Source: Bombilactobacillus apium (GTDB taxonomy: Bacteria; Bacillota; Bacilli; Lactobacillales; Lactobacillaceae). From it: DNA of 64,000 bases. The stretch spans positions 1 to 64,000 of the forward strand of contig NZ_JABZEC010000001.1 of assembly GCF_013385145.1 (NCBI RefSeq), in the 5' to 3' direction. Shown piece by piece: positions 1,321 to 39,167 of this stretch (positions are counted from its first letter, which is position 1; the number at the start of each line of letters is the position of its first letter). Below the pieces are notes generated by a model. The model made no database searches, was not told the origin of the DNA, and saw nothing but the letters and a program-made list of their open reading frames with translations. A program made the position numbers and the translations under genes.

Positions 1321-2751
1321 TTAGAAAATTTTTTGAAGTCGTTGACCAGTAATTTTTACGGAAATATTAAGTTGAGTCTGAATGCGCCAATCATTAGTGG
1401 TGGGGAAGAAACGTCCTGAAACCACCTTTTGTCCACCATCAAGGAAAAGTTCAAAACTGGAGGCATCTAACCATAATTTGAGTTGATGGGCTCCCGAATC
1501 TAAAGCTATGGTTCGAGTATCACCATAATCGGAGATAATTGCTTGACCGGCTTGCTGACGATCAATGGTTAGCGTTTTTTGATCTGCTTGAAATTGGAAG
1601 CTTAATTGTTCCGTCGAATTGCCTAGGGTGATTGTTCCTGTAGGTAAGGTTTTTAAATCAAAGGTTAAAACTTCATTGAATCTTAGTTTATCATGTAATG
1701 GGTCAAATTTTTCGGAACTTGTCGGAATAGTTACTGGAACTTGGATTAATTTTCCGTTTTGAAGGTGTAATTGCTTGACTAAACTTAAGCAACCCTGCCA
1801 ATCTTCTTGATCAGTCGGATAAACTATTTCCGGGAGACTTAACCAGCTAATGGCATAGCTTTCTTTATGAGGACCATTGACGACTTGGGTGGCATAACAA
1901 TCAAAACCTTCGTCGAAATTTTGGAGCGGACAGGGGTTAATTAATTTGGCCTGCTGCCAGTCAATTCCGTCTGCCAGCAGATACATATTGGGATAAATAT
2001 TAGCATAGGGAACTTGGGTGCGATCTAAACCTTGGGGACAAAAAATCAGCGCTACTTGTCCATCAACGAAAGCTAAATTAGGACATTCAATCATGAAGCC
2101 GAGATCTTCACCTAAGTCTAAGGGGCCGATTAAATTCCAAGGACCAGTGGGTTTAGCAGCCTGATATAAGAGAATGGCTCCTTTTTGGGATTGGGTCTGA
2201 GCGCCAATTAAAGCATAGTATTGTCCATCAACGAAGAGAATCTGGGGATCTCTAAAATTGGCTGTATATCCAGCAGGCTGTTTAATTAGCGGAATTTCTT
2301 GGGTGCCTAAATGCTGATCTTGATCCAACCAATTTCCCACTTGAGTACTTATTCGACCGCCGTCGGGAGTCCGAACATTGCCGGTGTACATCAAAAAAAG
2401 TTGATCATCAATTGGTAAAGCTGATCCGGAATAGACACCGTGGGTGCTATAAGGACTTTGCGGTTCTAAAAAGAGATCTTCTTCTCGCCAGTGAACTAAA
2501 TCTGGTGAGGATAAGTAATGCCAAGATTTTAAACCATGAACCGCACCAAAAGGAAAGTTTTGATAAGCGAGATACCACCGTTGATTAAAATAGGCAAAAC
2601 CATTGGGATCATTCAGTAAACCCGATTGCGGTTGAATATGGTAATTGAGGTGCCAAATTGATCCGGCCTGTCTTTTTTGCAAACACTCTAGTTCAGCCGG
2701 GCTGTAACTGGCATAAGGGGCATAACGTTCTTTGCTAGTCCAAGTTTTCAT
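1321..2751 (-). CDS. scrB: Sucrose-6-phosphate hydrolase (GH32)
   Basis: A GH32 beta-fructosidase that splits sucrose-6-phosphate from the PTS into glucose-6-phosphate and fructose, in the cytoplasm. With the start at 2751 it has 476 residues. The nucleophile Asp48 sits in LNDPNG, the transition-state stabiliser Asp168 in FRDPQ, and the acid/base Glu222 in the ECP motif. The five-bladed propeller is followed by a C-terminal beta-sandwich. A longer in-frame reading adds 16 residues, but GGAGG lies 9 bases before the ATG at 2751, so I chose that start. There is no signal peptide. It is divergent from scrA and forms a unit with scrR. Confidence 0.93.
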   Translation of the reverse strand: MKTWTSKERYAPYASYSPAELECLQKRQAGSIWHLNYHIQPQSGLLNDPNGFAYFNQRWYLAYQNFPFGAVHGLKSWHYLSSPDLVHWREEDLFLEPQSPYSTHGVYSGSALPIDDQLFLMYTGNVRTPDGGRISTQVGNWLDQDQHLGTQEIPLIKQPAGYTANFRDPQILFVDGQYYALIGAQTQSQKGAILLYQAAKPTGPWNLIGPLDLGEDLGFMIECPNLAFVDGQVALIFCPQGLDRTQVPYANIYPNMYLLADGIDWQQAKLINPCPLQNFDEGFDCYATQVVNGPHKESYAISWLSLPEIVYPTDQEDWQGCLSLVKQLHLQNGKLIQVPVTIPTSSEKFDPLHDKLRFNEVLTFDLKTLPTGTITLGNSTEQLSFQFQADQKTLTIDRQQAGQAIISDYGDTRTIALDSGAHQLKLWLDASSFELFLDGGQKVVSGRFFPTTNDWRIQTQLNISVKITGQRLQKIF

Positions 2752-2824
2752 TATAGGAAGCCTCCATTTGATTAACGATTCTTGTTGATATCTTAGCATA
2801 GAATACGCTTTTTTTCTATAATTT

Positions 2825-2862
2825 GATAAACGTTTGACAATTTATCAGGAAACGATTACAAT
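2825..2862 (+). promoter_or_regulatory. scrA promoter overlapped by ScrR/cre-like operators
   Basis: TTGACA (2834-2839), a 17-base spacer and TACAAT (2857-2862) form a near-consensus sigma-A promoter for scrA-scrK. AAACGTTT (2828-2835), the palindromic core of LacI-family operators, overlaps the -35 box. A second element, AGGAAACGATTACA (2847-2860), overlaps the -10 box; it matches the catabolite-responsive (cre) consensus at 12 of 14 positions. Binding at either site would block RNA polymerase. A weaker minus-strand promoter for scrB (TTATCA, 18 bases, TATTCT) shares the region. Which protein binds which site is inference. Confidence 0.75.
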
Positions 2863-2915
2863 TATTTTTGTGAGAGCTATCAAAAATAACAATAAAGCAT
2901 ACTGGAGGAATCCTG

Positions 2916-4868
2916 ATGGATCATAAACAGGCAGCTCAAAGCATTTTGAGTCAAGTTGGAAAGGATAATATTATTGCCGCCGCTCACTGTGCGACACGTT
3001 TACGCTTAGTAATTAGAGATGAGTCCAAAATTAATCAACAAGCTTTAGATAATAATCCAGCGGTGAAGGGGACTTTTCGGGTTAATGGTCAATACCAAAT
3101 TATTATTGGTCCTGGAGATGTTGATAAAGTTTATGCTCATCTAATTGCCATGACGGGTTTAAAAGAAGCAACACCAGATGATTTAAAAGAAATTGCGGCT
3201 GCCGATCAAAAGCCCAATCCGGTCATGGCCTTGGTCAAAGTCTTATCGGATATCTTTATTCCTCTAATCCCGGCTTTAGTAGCTGGGGGGTTATTAATGG
3301 CTTTAAATAACGTTTTAACTTCGAAAGATTTATTTGGACCGCAAGCCTTAGTCACTATGTATCCGGGAATTAAAGGGATTGCGGAGATGGTTAATACTTT
3401 TGCTTCTGCACCTTTTACTTTCTTACCTGTTCTTTTAGGATTTTCTGCTACTCGGCGTTTTGGGGGGAACGCTTACTTAGGTGCCACTATGGGAATGATT
3501 ATGGTGATGCCAGTGCTTGTGAATGGTTATGGGGTCTCCGCGGCTTTAGCCAATGGATCAATGCACTATTGGAATATTTTTGGGTGGCATGTTGCTCAAG
3601 CAGGTTATCAAGGGCAGGTTCTCCCAGTTTTAGCAGTGGCCTTCATTTTGGCGAAAGTTGAAAAGTGGTTGCATAAAAGAATGCCCGCCACCTTGGACTT
3701 TACTTTTACGCCCATGTTAAGCATTATTTTAGTAGCTTTTTTGACCTTTGCCTTTGTCGGTCCAGTTTTGCGGATTGTGGGAAATGGTCTGACTGATGGC
3801 ATTGTCTTCCTGTATGATAAATCTGGTTTTATTGGTTCAACAATTTTTGGTTTAGTTTATTCGCCGGTAGTTATTACCGGTTTACATCAAAGCTTTCCCG
3901 CAATAGAAACCCAATTGTTAGCAAATGTAGCTAAAACTGGCGGTGATTTTTTCTTCCCAATCGCTTCCATGGCTAACGTTGGTCAAGCAGCCGCTTGTTT
4001 AGCAATCTTTTTCTTGAGTCGTGACGCTAAAGAAAAGGGTCTGTCTTCTTCAGCCGGAATTTCAGCTCTTTTAGGAATTACTGAACCAGCTATCTTTGGG
4101 GTTAACTTGAAGAAACGCTTTCCTTTCTTTATGGGGATGTTAGGCAGTGCTGTAGGCTGTTTCTTTGTTGGTCTTTTTGGGGTTCGGTCAACAGCTCTTG
4201 GTTCTGCCGGAGTTATTGGTTTCATTTCGCTTCCGGTCAAATATTATTTTCCTTTCTTTCTAGCTTTATTGGCAAGTATGGTGGTCGCTTTCTTCGGAAC
4301 TTTCCTCTACGGTCATCGAGTTTTAGGACAAGAAGTAGATTCTCCAGCTCAACAGCCGACTAGCAACAAAGTAGTTGATGGAACTATTAGTGCACCAGTA
4401 ACTGGGAAAGTAGAAAGTTTAAAGCAAGTAACTGATCAAGTTTTTGCCAGTGAAATGATGGGTAAGGGAGCAGCCATTATTCCCCAAGAAGAAAAGGTTT
4501 ATGCACCGGTTACGGGAACAATTACGGTGGCTTATCCAACTAAGCATGCTTACGGCCTTTTAGCTGATGACGGAACAGAAGTTTTAATTCATTTGGGAAT
4601 TGATACCGTAAAGCTCAATGGAAAATATTTCACAACGCAAGTTCAGCCAGGTCAACATGTTCAAGTAGGCGAACTTTTGGGAACCTTTGATCTTGCGGCA
4701 ATTAAAAAGGCCGGTTACGATCCAACGGTAATGGTTGTGGTTACAAATACCGATAAGTATGCTAGTGTTGCACGGATTGAAATTCAAAAAATTGAACATG
4801 GTCAGAATTTATTAGCTTTAACTCAAGCCGAGAAAGTTAGTGCAGTAGCAACCGCAGAAGATAATTAG
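2916..4868 (+). CDS. scrA: PTS sucrose transporter EIIBCA
   Basis: A 650-residue membrane phosphotransferase carrier with domains in the order IIB, IIC, IIA. The IIB domain (about 1-80) carries the phosphorylated Cys25 in [10 protein letters not shown]. The IIC domain (about 105-460) holds the membrane helices and the sugar site (GITEPAIFG motif). The IIA domain (about 490-640) carries the active His559 in [10 protein letters not shown]. It takes up sucrose and delivers sucrose-6-phosphate. Sucrose specificity is inferred from the adjacent scrB, scrR and scrK; the glucose-superfamily sequence alone could also fit trehalose or beta-glucosides. GGAGG precedes the ATG. Confidence 0.9.
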
Positions 4869-33226: not shown

Positions 33227-34291
33227 ATGGCAAAAGATGCTTATACAGTAGCAATTTTGGGAGTAACCGGAGCGGTAGGAACGCGTTTATTGGAGCAATT
33301 AGCCCAGTCTAAAATTCCAGTCGAAAAAGTAATTCCTTTAGCTTCTTCGCGTTCTGCGGGTAAGACTTTACAATTTAAGGGTCAAGCAGTGACAGTTCAA
33401 GAGGCCAAGCCTGAATCTTTCACTGGAGTGGACTTAGTTTTAGCTTCTGCGGGTGGTGGGGTTTCGAAACGATTATTGCCTGAAGCCGTAAAAAGAGGGG
33501 CGGTTTGTGTCGATAATACCAGTGCCTTTCGAATGGATCCGGAAGTTCCCTTGGTAGTTCCCGAAGTTAATCCAGAACAGTTACAAAAGCATCAAGGGAT
33601 CATTGCTAATCCTAATTGTTCAACAATCCAAATGATGGTTGCCTTGGAACCTTTACGTCGTCGGTTTGGTTTAGAACAGATTGTGGTTTCAACCTATCAA
33701 GCAGTTTCTGGAGCTGGTCAATCAGCTTGGCAGGAATTGTTGGATCAAGCTCAGCAGCATTTAAATCAAGAAACTATGACGGCCAAAATTTTACCCACAA
33801 AAGGGGATCCCAAGCACTATCCAATGGCCTTTAACTTATTACCTCAAATTGATGTTTTCGAAGAAGACGGCTATTCCCATGAAGAATGGAAAATGATTCA
33901 TGAGACTAAAAAGATCATGTGTAATGATATGGATGATCTGAGCCTAAAGGTAACTGCTACTTGTGTCCGAGTTCCCGTAGAATTAGGTCATGGGGAGTCA
34001 ATTTATATTCAATTGGCTGATCCGACGACTACTGTGGAGCAGATTCGTGATTTATTAGCTCAAGCTCCTGGAGTTGTAGTCCAAGATCAACCAGAGGAAC
34101 AAATTTATCCGCAGCCATTGACTGCTGCTGGTAAAAGAGAAACTTTTGTCGGTCGCATTCGTGCCGATGCGGAAAATCCCGGTGCCTTTAACCTGTGGGT
34201 AGTTTCCGATAATTTACTCAAGGGTGCCGCTTGGAATACAGTCCAGATTGCCGAAGAATTGGCTCGTCAAGACTTGGTCCGGGTTCCTTAA
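33227..34291 (+). CDS. asd: Aspartate-semialdehyde dehydrogenase
   Basis: A 354-residue NADP-dependent enzyme reducing aspartyl phosphate to the semialdehyde. It has the N-terminal fingerprint AILGVTGAVGTRLL, the catalytic Cys131 in IIANPNCSTIQM and VSTYQAVSGAG. ATG starts one base after the patA stop, and the gene closes the seven-gene lysine operon. Together with lysC and dapF on the other strand, the locus carries every step from aspartate to lysine. Confidence 0.96.
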   Translation: MAKDAYTVAILGVTGAVGTRLLEQLAQSKIPVEKVIPLASSRSAGKTLQFKGQAVTVQEAKPESFTGVDLVLASAGGGVSKRLLPEAVKRGAVCVDNTSAFRMDPEVPLVVPEVNPEQLQKHQGIIANPNCSTIQMMVALEPLRRRFGLEQIVVSTYQAVSGAGQSAWQELLDQAQQHLNQETMTAKILPTKGDPKHYPMAFNLLPQIDVFEEDGYSHEEWKMIHETKKIMCNDMDDLSLKVTATCVRVPVELGHGESIYIQLADPTTTVEQIRDLLAQAPGVVVQDQPEEQIYPQPLTAAGKRETFVGRIRADAENPGAFNLWVVSDNLLKGAAWNTVQIAEELARQDLVRVP

Positions 34292-36901: not shown

Positions 36902-37951
36902 CTATTCATAATTGAGGGCAAAGTCACTAGCTTGGAAGTAATGGAGTTTTCGCTGCCAAAGGTAATTGCTGACTAGACTCAGAGTGATCGGCAAAATTAA
37001 GAAGTTTAAGACGATGATTCCGATGTTGAGCCAAGTATTATTATGAAAGCCTTCGAGAGCGACTAAAGGACCAATGAGACCAGAAAAACCAAAGCCCGCA
37101 CTTAAAGGGGTTCCCGTTATTTGGAAGAAGGAGCCAATTCCGCCAGCAATTCCGGCATTTAGCAAGATGGGAAGAAAGAGGCGTGGGCGTTTAATAAGGT
37201 TAGCCATTTGAATTTTGGGAGATCCTAGAAAATGGGCCAAGGAAGTGCCCACAGAGTTAGCTTTCCAACCATAAATAGCAAGAGCAAAGCTGGCCGCCAC
37301 AATTCCCAGATTGGCAGCTCCAGCGGCTAAGCCATTGATTCCAATAGCGGTCGCAATTCCGACCGAAGAAATAGGCGAAACAATTAAGAAGGCAAAGGCA
37401 ATTGCCATGAGAACGCTCATTAATACTGGTTGTAAGGTATTGAACTGATTGATAATTATTCCGATTCCTTGAGCAATTTGGCTAACCGGTTGTAGGGTTA
37501 AACTCCCAGTTCCTCCAGCAACAACTAAAACAATTAGAGGAACTAACAAAATTGTGTAAGCTTGCAGGCGGGAACCAATCAATTCTAAGAGCAGATAGCC
37601 AAGGAAGATAGTCAAGGCAAGATTAATGACGTCCCCTGAACCTTGAGCTTGAAAACCCGTCTTAGTAAAGTGGAAATTACCAGCTCCGGCTACAGCAGCC
37701 AGGATCAAAGCGGCGGTGTGAATTGGCGAAAGCTTACCGACCATTCCGACACAAGCAGCACTGGTCATCGGTAAAAGGAGAGCTGCCAAGCTGGTTAAAG
37801 TGGTAATAAAAGCTAATTGGGGGAAACTAGGTAAAAGGAATTTAATTAGCTGGTTTACCAAGGCTCCAGGAATTAGGGCCACAATAACTCCCATGGAGAT
37901 TCCGTTTAAAGTATTCATGACAATCGGACCGAGAAAAGATTTGATCTTCAT
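36902..37951 (-). CDS. PTS_EIIC_2/PfoR-type membrane protein, substrate unknown
   Basis: A 349-residue protein with about nine or ten membrane helices. The start KSFLGPIVMNTLNGISMGVIVALIPGAL and the segment GWKANSVGTSLAHFLGSPKIQMANLIK place it in the PTS EIIC-like family that includes the putative toxin regulator PfoR. No IIA or IIB domain is attached and none is encoded nearby, so it is unlikely to be a working sugar PTS. It is preceded by a leader peptide rich in aromatic codons and an attenuator, which suggests a link to aromatic amino acids. GAGGTGA precedes the ATG. pepX follows 65 bp later. Confidence 0.75.
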   Translation of the reverse strand: MKIKSFLGPIVMNTLNGISMGVIVALIPGALVNQLIKFLLPSFPQLAFITTLTSLAALLLPMTSAACVGMVGKLSPIHTAALILAAVAGAGNFHFTKTGFQAQGSGDVINLALTIFLGYLLLELIGSRLQAYTILLVPLIVLVVAGGTGSLTLQPVSQIAQGIGIIINQFNTLQPVLMSVLMAIAFAFLIVSPISSVGIATAIGINGLAAGAANLGIVAASFALAIYGWKANSVGTSLAHFLGSPKIQMANLIKRPRLFLPILLNAGIAGGIGSFFQITGTPLSAGFGFSGLIGPLVALEGFHNNTWLNIGIIVLNFLILPITLSLVSNYLWQRKLHYFQASDFALNYE

Positions 37952-37964
37952 ATTCTCACCTCAA

Positions 37965-38007
37965 AAAATAAAATAAAAAGTCCTCACAGCATGAAGCCTG
38001 TGAGGAC
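37965..38007 (-). terminator. Attenuator terminator upstream of the PfoR-like gene
   Basis: On the minus strand GTCCTCACAG (38007-37998) pairs with CTGTGAGGAC (37989-37980). This is a perfect 10-bp stem followed by a long T-rich tract (37980-37965). It lies 14 bp before the coding region, so it decides whether the gene is transcribed. Confidence 0.93.
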
Positions 38008-38116
38008 CAATAAATTTGCTGGAAAAGTCTCACAGGTTAAGTTTTACTTGATCTGTGAGAACTTTGCAGACAACGAAAGCACTTCTGACTCCCAGATCAT
38101 TCCGGAAACCAAAAGT
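37980..38116 (-). promoter_or_regulatory. Six-arm attenuation leader with competing hairpins
   Basis: Arms in transcript order: A 38116-38104, B 38093-38081, arm 1 38059-38053, arm 2 38036-38029, arm 3 38004-37997, arm 4 37989-37980. State 1 is A:B (13 bp with G-U pairs), 1:2 (CTCACAG/CTGTGAG) and 3:4 (terminator). State 2 is B:1 (38098-38089 with 38059-38050, nine of ten pairs) and 2:3 (CCTGTGAG/CTCACAGG), which breaks the terminator. Arm A lies on the Tyr-Phe-Trp-Phe codons of the leader ORF, so a ribosome stalled there would force state 2. The pairings are read by eye. Confidence 0.75.
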
Positions 38117-38159
38117 AATATCGAGAGCTATTTAAATGGCGTTGGGTTAGACGATTCAT
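38097..38159 (-). CDS. Aromatic-rich leader peptide (20 codons)
   Basis: This ORF is too short for routine gene callers. It has an ATG with AAGGAG (38172-38167) 7 bases upstream. It encodes 20 residues ending RYYFWFPE and a TGA stop. Five aromatic codons in a row (Tyr-Tyr-Phe-Trp-Phe) are followed by Pro and Glu. They fall on arm A of the attenuator hairpin set and upstream of the terminator, as in the classical trp and phe leaders. The peptide itself probably has no function; its translation senses charged tRNA. Expression is inferred from the promoter and ribosome site. Confidence 0.8.
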   Translation of the reverse strand: MNRLTQRHLNSSRYYFWFPE

Positions 38160-38188
38160 AAAAAGGCTCCTTGTTAAGATTAAATTGA

Positions 38189-38217
38189 ATTTTACCGAAT
38201 GAAGATTAATAATTCAA
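38189..38217 (-). promoter_or_regulatory. Promoter of the leader peptide and PfoR-like gene
   Basis: On the minus strand TTGAAT (38217-38212), a 17-base spacer and TAAAAT (38194-38189) lie 30 bp before the leader ATG. This gives a 5' end just ahead of the ribosome site. Confidence 0.7.
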
Positions 38218-38388: not shown

Positions 38389-38424
38389 TAATGGTTAAAA
38401 TAATAACGAAAGTGAGTGGAGTTA

Positions 38425-38781
38425 ATGGATTTTTGGTTGGTTAGTTTGGGGAGTGGAATAGGCTCTCTGTTACGTTATGGAGTAACTTTTTTAGCTCAAA
38501 AATTATGGTCGCAAAATAGTTTTGTGGGAACCTTAATTATTAATTGGAGCGGGAGTTTTCTCCTGGCCTATTTCTGGGCGTGCCGACTCACCGGGATGGA
38601 GACTAGTTTTTGGGGAAGTGGGGTGCTTGGTGGCTGGACCACTTTTTCCACATTAAATAAGGACTTGCTTACCCTAGGAGGACAAAAACGCTGGTGGGTG
38701 GCTTGCTTGTACGGAGGCTTAAGTTATGTAGGAGGGATTTTAATAGCGATGAGCGGCTATTATTTAGGTCAAAGGAGTTGA
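38425..38781 (+). CDS. crcB1: Fluoride channel subunit CrcB/Fluc 1
   Basis: A 118-residue membrane protein with four helices that lets fluoride leave the cell. GSGIGSLLRYGVTFLAQ, GTLIINWSGSFLLAYF and GGWTTFSTLNKDLL are the family signatures. Here Trp follows the conserved Asn where many homologues have Val or Leu. The ATG at 38425 is chosen over a GTG at 38416 that overlaps the ribosome site. It is paired with a second, different crcB 5 bp downstream, so the channel is probably a heterodimer. Confidence 0.93.
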   Translation: MDFWLVSLGSGIGSLLRYGVTFLAQKLWSQNSFVGTLIINWSGSFLLAYFWACRLTGMETSFWGSGVLGGWTTFSTLNKDLLTLGGQKRWWVACLYGGLSYVGGILIAMSGYYLGQRS

Positions 38782-38786
38782 GGTAA

Positions 38787-39167
38787 ATGACTGGAATCTT
38801 AGTTTTTATCGGGGGAATGCTTGGTGGTGCCTTACGATATAGTCTCCTGCAATTAATTTCGACGCCAGTTACTAATTGGTTAGGGTTATTATTAATAAAC
38901 TTATTAGGCAGTGGTTTATTAACTTTTTGGAATCGTTATGGGCTTGAACAATTGAAACTACGGCCAGCTCTATTAACAGCTGGTGGGATGGGAGTGTTAG
39001 GAGGATTTACCTCGTATTCAGCTTTTAGCTTGGATTTCTTAAAATTGCTTTTGCATCAGCAATGGATACTTGCTGGATTCTATGTTATTTTAACAATAGC
39101 TGGCAGTTTATTAGCGGCTTTTCTGGGTAATTTTTTAGCCCAACGTTTAATTGAATTTCATCGTTAA
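38787..39167 (+). CDS. crcB2: Fluoride channel subunit CrcB/Fluc 2
   Basis: A 126-residue partner subunit with four helices. GGMLGGALRYSLLQL, LGLLLINLLGSGLLTFW and GGMGVLGGFTSYSAFSLDFL carry the conserved Arg, Asn and Phe/Thr-Ser positions of the Fluc pore and central sodium site. The ribosome site AAAGGAG lies just before the stop of crcB1, and GAGG just ahead of its own ATG. Regulation is by the upstream fluoride riboswitch. Confidence 0.93.
   Translation: MTGILVFIGGMLGGALRYSLLQLISTPVTNWLGLLLINLLGSGLLTFWNRYGLEQLKLRPALLTAGGMGVLGGFTSYSAFSLDFLKLLLHQQWILAGFYVILTIAGSLLAAFLGNFLAQRLIEFHR

Follow-up and report, generated by a model that had tools for sequence, protein, structure and literature searches.

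A candidate ribosome-mediated attenuator with aromatic codons upstream of a PTS_EIIC_2 gene in Bombilactobacillus apium, and related leaders in Lactobacillaceae

Does a translating ribosome sense the supply of tyrosine, phenylalanine and tryptophan at a lactobacillus gene, and what would such a gene be needed for? The question is raised by a leader upstream of a gene for a PTS_EIIC_2 membrane protein in the window (i.e., the whole 64,000-nt stretch of Bombilactobacillus apium DNA analysed here). According to standard accounts, T-boxes and TRAP provide most of the amino-acid control in Firmicutes, a few histidine leaders being the exceptions, and aromatic sensing in lactobacilli had been thought T-box work. 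The first-pass annotation had proposed an aromatic leader-peptide attenuator at this site, a proposal supported here by the retention of the ORF and its codons in related loci, by the conservation of the antiterminator pairing, and by folding of the RNA behind a positioned ribosome. We consider it very probable that the element is a ribosome-mediated transcription attenuator responding to Tyr/Phe/Trp shortage.

Anatomy of the leader and the proposed course of attenuation

The features of the locus, from promoter to controlled gene, are the following:

38189-38217 (-): promoter-like site, TTGAAT (38217-38212), 17 nt, TAAAAT (38194-38189); consensus match, 9/12
38167-38171 (-): ribosome-binding site AGGAG of the leader ORF, read directly
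38097-38159 (-): leader ORF of 20 codons, from ATG at 38159 to TGA at 38099-38097, encoding MNRLTQRHLNSSRYYFWFPE; the aromatic run is conserved in related leaders
38106-38120 (-): putative sensor codons Tyr-Tyr-Phe-Trp-Phe, read from the sequence; in ribosome-position folding, 2:3 forms on the second Tyr, Phe and Trp
38101-38117 (-): arm A, inside the aromatic codons; forms the 17-pair stem A:B (38117-38080, G-U pairs included), with covariation in a conserved 8-bp core
38080-38099 (-): arm B, overlapping the stop codon; pairs with A via 38096-38080 or with arm 1 via TGATCTG, 38099-38093
38049-38060 (-): arm 1, TCTCACAGATCA; pairs with arm 2 via 38060-38053 or with B via 38055-38049
38028-38036 (-): arm 2, CCTGTGAGA; pairs with arm 1 or arm 3
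37997-38008 (-): arm 3, GGTCCTCACAGG; pairs with arm 4 (terminator) or arm 2 (antiterminator)
37979-37989 (-): arm 4, CTGTGAGGACT, then TTTTATTTTA; intrinsic terminator
36902-37951 (-): putatively regulated gene, PF13303 PTS_EIIC_2 (PfoR-like) membrane protein of 349 aa (Pfam E 3e-87; 293 bits vs a cut-off of 28.9)

The promoter, ribosome-binding site, 20-codon ORF and six arms described in the first-pass annotation are all present on the minus strand between 38217 and 37979, as are the two sets of pairings that it had opposed to each other, A:B with 1:2 and 3:4 against B:1 with 2:3, with which the covariation and partner-swap tests presented below agree. The terminator had been described as a perfect 10-bp stem, which holds for its ten Watson-Crick pairs, but the full stem 3:4 comprises 11 pairs (38008-37979), one of them G-T, and is followed by a T-rich tail. 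Both alternative pairings are exact: in B:1, TGATCTG (38099-38093) pairs with CAGATCA (38055-38049), and in 2:3, CCTGTGAG (38036-38029) pairs with CTCACAGG (38004-37997) at 8/8 positions; terminator and antiterminator are mutually exclusive, since arm 3 is common to both. The run Tyr-Tyr-Phe-Trp-Phe-Pro-Glu constitutes the C-terminal end of the leader peptide, and 27 nt separate the terminator stem from the start of the PF13303 gene. The folding energy of the 226-nt leader was -67.7 kcal/mol, vs -45.4 +/- 4.1 for dinucleotide shuffles (z -5.5). The putative promoter is the least certain element of the leader, being a weak match (TTGAAT-17-TAAAAT); within the 500 nt scanned, chance alone would produce 1.6 sites of this grade.

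From this arrangement we infer stalling, antitermination and the direction of the response as follows. A ribosome would follow RNA polymerase along the leader; at low levels of tRNA charged with Tyr, Phe or Trp, it would stall on the aromatic codons and cover arm A, leaving arm B free to take arm 1, and arm 2, freed in turn, would pair with arm 3 ahead of the synthesis of arm 4. No terminator would then form, and the PTS_EIIC_2 gene would be transcribed. With aromatic amino acids plentiful, a ribosome at the stop codon would cover B, allowing 1:2 and then 3:4 to form and transcription to stop; with no ribosome at all, A:B would form, followed likewise by 1:2, 3:4 and a transcription stop.

Related leaders and the genes they precede

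PTS_EIIC_2 orthologues of Bombilactobacillus relatives and of a Lentilactobacillus (MKLIAKTQLNTRNFWFWFFDN) have the same kind of leader upstream, the leader of the B. mellis locus being identical to that in a genome of the same genus. With an E threshold of 0.01, a first covariance model, built from a seven-sequence alignment, matched 85 of the 398 Lactobacillaceae genomes sampled; a second one, built from 32 leaders, matched 106 of them at E 0.003, spread over 22 of 40 genera, so that about a quarter of the sampled Lactobacillaceae carry a candidate attenuator of this leader-peptide family, mostly aromatic. With the second model, matches were also obtained in 20 of 395 genomes of an order sample, two other families among them, and, in a class sample of 349 genomes (other Lactobacillales included), in the window genome only (0/348 others). 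Weak matches, mostly with E above about 1e-4, a range that includes false ones, showed no convincing leader peptide at eight loci (L138, L143, L144, L148, L151, L154-L156).

The short ORF and its aromatic codons, two features of the first-pass annotation, are both retained in related loci: the best 30 loci all encode an aromatic leader peptide, with the consensus TQLN-CRYYFWFF, although these models contain the codon run and their matches are biased towards it. Phe is present in all 71 aromatic leaders, Tyr in 69 and Trp in 61, Trp being missing from the other 10. The start codon and ribosome-binding site lie outside the covariance model; in 53 of 57 leaders an ATG with a ribosome site opens the frame of the codon run, and no such pair does so in either of the other two frames; leaders had in part been selected by the presence of an ORF with a ribosome site.

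Regulated genes fit the amino acid presumably sensed, i.e., aro genes, aminotransferase and 2-hydroxyacid dehydrogenase genes, and serC-serA; for the PTS_EIIC_2 gene of the window, the fit to aromatic metabolism comes through its operon partners in other genomes. Leaders with aromatic codons precede aminotransferase + D-2-hydroxyacid dehydrogenase + PTS_EIIC_2 operons, PTS_EIIC_2 alone (KYYFWFF), aro operons and ABC transporter genes. Among the aro genes (here and for the other targets below, genes lacking a Pfam match were named from their sequence), YYYYWFR-type leaders stand before DAHP synthase and 3-dehydroquinate synthase (aroB), a FYYYWF leader before transketolase and a shikimate dehydrogenase-like gene (aroE), and an EFWFF leader before a gene that, by eye and with no Pfam match, resembles prephenate dehydratase; RFYYGYF and KFYFSFF leaders precede ABC_sub_bind-type transporter genes. 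An element confined to PTS_EIIC_2 genes was excluded, as the majority of members precede aminotransferase operons. In these, the aromatic leader precedes the opening gene of the operon, an aminotransferase (PF00155); next comes the D-2-hydroxyacid dehydrogenase, which is most similar to D-lactate and D-2-hydroxyisocaproate dehydrogenases, and PTS_EIIC_2 is the last gene. The enzymes of these operons could make or use phenyllactate-type compounds, which are of food and gut interest.

Weaker matches of the same RNA model carry other codon runs, none of which was present in the model-building sets. Ser-Ser-Ser leaders followed by a terminator precede serC-serA operons at four loci (L087, L102, L149, L152), in three of which ribosome folding favours the antiterminator on the Ser codons. 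Single cases comprise Val runs (L133, before a permease, and L134), Ile or Leu/Ile runs (L088, L091 and L092) and a His run (L094); the gene preceded by the L092 leader is a dehydrogenase of lactate/2-hydroxyisocaproate type. In L094, two ORFs that by eye resemble an IS607-type recombinase and its TnpB partner (1353-3153) intervene between the His leader and the gene of an amino-acid permease, and an insertion seems to have parted this attenuator from its gene. At L098, successive similar ABC_sub_bind-type protein genes follow one aromatic leader on the minus strand, seemingly the result of a tandem triplication; the protein may be a component of an aromatic/tryptophan transporter.

As regards the protein encoded downstream of the window leader, its predicted structure (mean pLDDT 79) was matched by glucose-superfamily EIIC transporters at Z 11-16 over about 310-320 residues, those of PtsG/MalT type at Z 14-16; the best match reached Z 16, eight EIIC chains scored about 8 or more, and other folds remained below 6. 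Neither chorismate synthase nor DAHP synthase was found in the window genome (99.9% complete), which should therefore need external aromatic amino acids. Given the rise expected on aromatic starvation, these two missing key enzymes of aromatic synthesis, the EIIC-like fold, and the linkage to aminotransferase and 2-hydroxyacid dehydrogenase genes, the protein most likely imports aromatic amino acids or the corresponding 2-oxo/2-hydroxy acids, the substrate itself being a guess from regulation and gene neighbours. The name PfoR derives from a regulator, and the aminotransferase and D-2-hydroxyacid dehydrogenase could produce aromatic lactates for export; attenuation might thus operate as proposed on an exporter or a PfoR-like regulator, a possibility that we deem unlikely, as export induced by starvation would waste a scarce amino acid, and as the predicted fold is that of an EIIC transporter. 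A second PTS_EIIC_2 paralogue (37% identity) is encoded in the same genome (contig C9, 107420-108424), with no obvious aromatic leader upstream. In other Lactobacillales families (L042, L043, L045), a PTS_EIIC_2 homologue lies in or beside apparent 2-oxoacid dehydrogenase complex clusters, and a short-ORF scan of these three loci revealed no aromatic leader.

Alternative pairings and ribosome position

In the seven-sequence alignment, A:B, 1:2 and 3:4 reached 87% pairing, and both partners had changed in 10 pairs; a shift by one column made this pairing collapse. The alternative B:1, which lies outside the covariance model's own structure, was 92.7% paired, with changes from T-A to C-G and from G-C to A-T. 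As for 2:3, on which the first-pass annotation had expected covariation, complementarity is indeed kept while the sequence changes across related leaders: among 57 non-redundant leaders, arm 3 paired at -13.8 kcal/mol with the region upstream of it in the same leader, vs -9.25 with that of swapped loci and -6.9 with downstream control DNA, and none of 10,000 permutations reached the energy of the true partners. Exchange of partners between loci weakened both 2:3 and B:1. A comparison of codon positions for coding constraint in the TQLN segment, which precedes the part covered by the model, counted 487/513/554 differences, with no informative contrast.

The RNA made so far (to arm 3) was then folded behind a ribosome placed codon by codon, with an assumed footprint and with equilibrium folding as a stand-in for co-transcriptional kinetics. 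Expected 2:3 pairs amounted to 8.9 on the aromatic run vs 5.5 elsewhere, with the peak located on the run in 30 of 31 leaders, and 2,000 trials with random windows gave no value above 7.9. For the window leader the values were 0.0 without ribosome, 8.1-8.5 with the A site on the second Tyr, Phe or Trp, and 1.0 at the stop codon, much as the annotation had anticipated for ribosome coverage of this region; the first Tyr (1.4) and the last Phe (0.0) gave little antitermination, so that not every aromatic codon of this leader would act. Values on the own-codon run exceeded those at other positions in 43 of 52 further leaders, Ser, Val, Ile/Leu and His types included, a set that counts the window leader and L038 again. 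Several leaders fold 2:3 at all ribosome positions, and in these the states are not separated by equilibrium folding. In silico, then, the position of the ribosome on the codon run selects the antiterminator.

This dependence bears on the possibility that the short ORF is a chance or unrelated feature and that a protein or ligand (as in a riboswitch, a TRAP-like system or a T-box) acts through 2:3 vs 3:4. The RNA pairings alone would fit a ligand-controlled terminator as well, and T-boxes are in wide use in Firmicutes (PMC3766115); even so, we regard this reading as highly improbable, as the expected 2:3 pairing varies with ribosome position, the leader-frame ATG and ribosome site are found in 53/57 leaders (partly picked for them), and the codons shift with the pathway, Ser before serC-serA and aromatic before aro genes. 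The leader and the related loci also gave no Rfam match: a known RNA family (T-box, riboswitch) at the leader was rejected, the Rfam scan of the window being empty there with matches only elsewhere, and the T-box covariance model (RF00230) had no match in the window nor in 27 related loci. That the ribosome senses instead a general slow-down of translation (antibiotics, or nascent-chain arrest by a hydrophobic peptide) has very little chance of being right: bulky residues do end the leader peptides, and arrest leaders such as the ermC and msrD types exist in Firmicutes, but the regulated genes serve amino-acid synthesis, salvage and transport, and the residues vary (Phe/Tyr/Trp) and give way to Ser, Val, Ile or His in the leaders of other genes, which fits codon sensing and not a fixed arrest peptide.

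Relation to known attenuators

Attenuation through codon sensing is a known kind of control. The enterobacterial his leader has the same six-arm layout, with A:B, 1:2 and 3:4 against B:1 and 2:3. The his and phe/trp leaders (Rfam RF00514, RF00513) resemble the lactobacillus leaders in the run of the regulated residue, the overlapping alternative hairpins and the intrinsic terminator; the lactobacillus leaders, however, belong to another phylum, differ in sequence and arms, carry a mixed Tyr/Phe/Trp run, and also precede transporter genes and an aminotransferase/hydroxyacid dehydrogenase operon, unlike those of enterobacteria. Neither the window leader nor the related loci matched the Rfam Trp, His, Leu or Thr leader families at gathering thresholds.

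Among Firmicutes, a His leader was proposed for hisS/hisZ of bacilli by authors who, in 2010, knew of no earlier leader-peptide system outside Proteobacteria and Actinobacteria except the atypical ermC leader (PMC2965389), and in three further lineages, the B. cereus group, Peptostreptococcaceae and Erysipelotrichales, his operons were later proposed to have His leaders too (PMC9413887). In these cases ribosome-mediated attenuation was likewise predicted by sequence comparison, but for His only and in other orders. For Lactobacillales, T-boxes have been reported (PMC2965389, PMC9413887); a survey with known Rfam motifs listed 291 of them across 15 genomes of Lactobacillaceae and, in its discussion, treated amino-acid leaders as a trait of gamma-proteobacteria (PMC3766115). 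These T-boxes likewise respond to tRNA charging at the same kinds of genes, often via a terminator (PMC3766115), but in the leaders described here the proposed sensor is the translating ribosome, not tRNA binding. The lactobacillus family itself was found neither in Rfam nor in the open-access papers searched, none of which describes leader peptides with aromatic or serine runs in lactobacilli; a subscription journal may contain such a description.

The members share A:B, 1:2 and 3:4 against B:1 and 2:3, arranged around CAGATC/GATCTG and CAGTC/GACTG cores. On balance we lean, with some reserve, towards a single Lactobacillales chassis in which the codon run has been exchanged (aromatic, Ser, Val, Ile-Leu or His), beside or replacing T-boxes, and in which the job of the PTS_EIIC_2 (PfoR-like) protein is aromatic acid uptake. 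If so, industrially and medically important lactobacilli would possess a second starvation-sensing system, its members would constitute a natural experiment in how the specificity of an RNA switch changes when its codon run is exchanged, and a testable function, the import of aromatic acids, could be assigned to the PTS_EIIC_2/PfoR membrane proteins, which are poorly understood.

Elsewhere in the window, the Rfam scan matched a fluoride riboswitch on the opposite strand, a lysine riboswitch, tmRNA and tRNAs. The fluoride riboswitch (RF01734, 38289-38361, +) is followed by two crcB genes for fluoride exporters, arranged in tandem (38416-39167, +), a unit directly divergent from the leader-controlled gene; a role of the leader hairpin as terminator of the crcB genes was excluded, these being on the plus strand and divergent. 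The lysine riboswitch (RF00168, 26814-26995, +) lies upstream of an apparent lysine/diaminopimelate operon ending near 34291.
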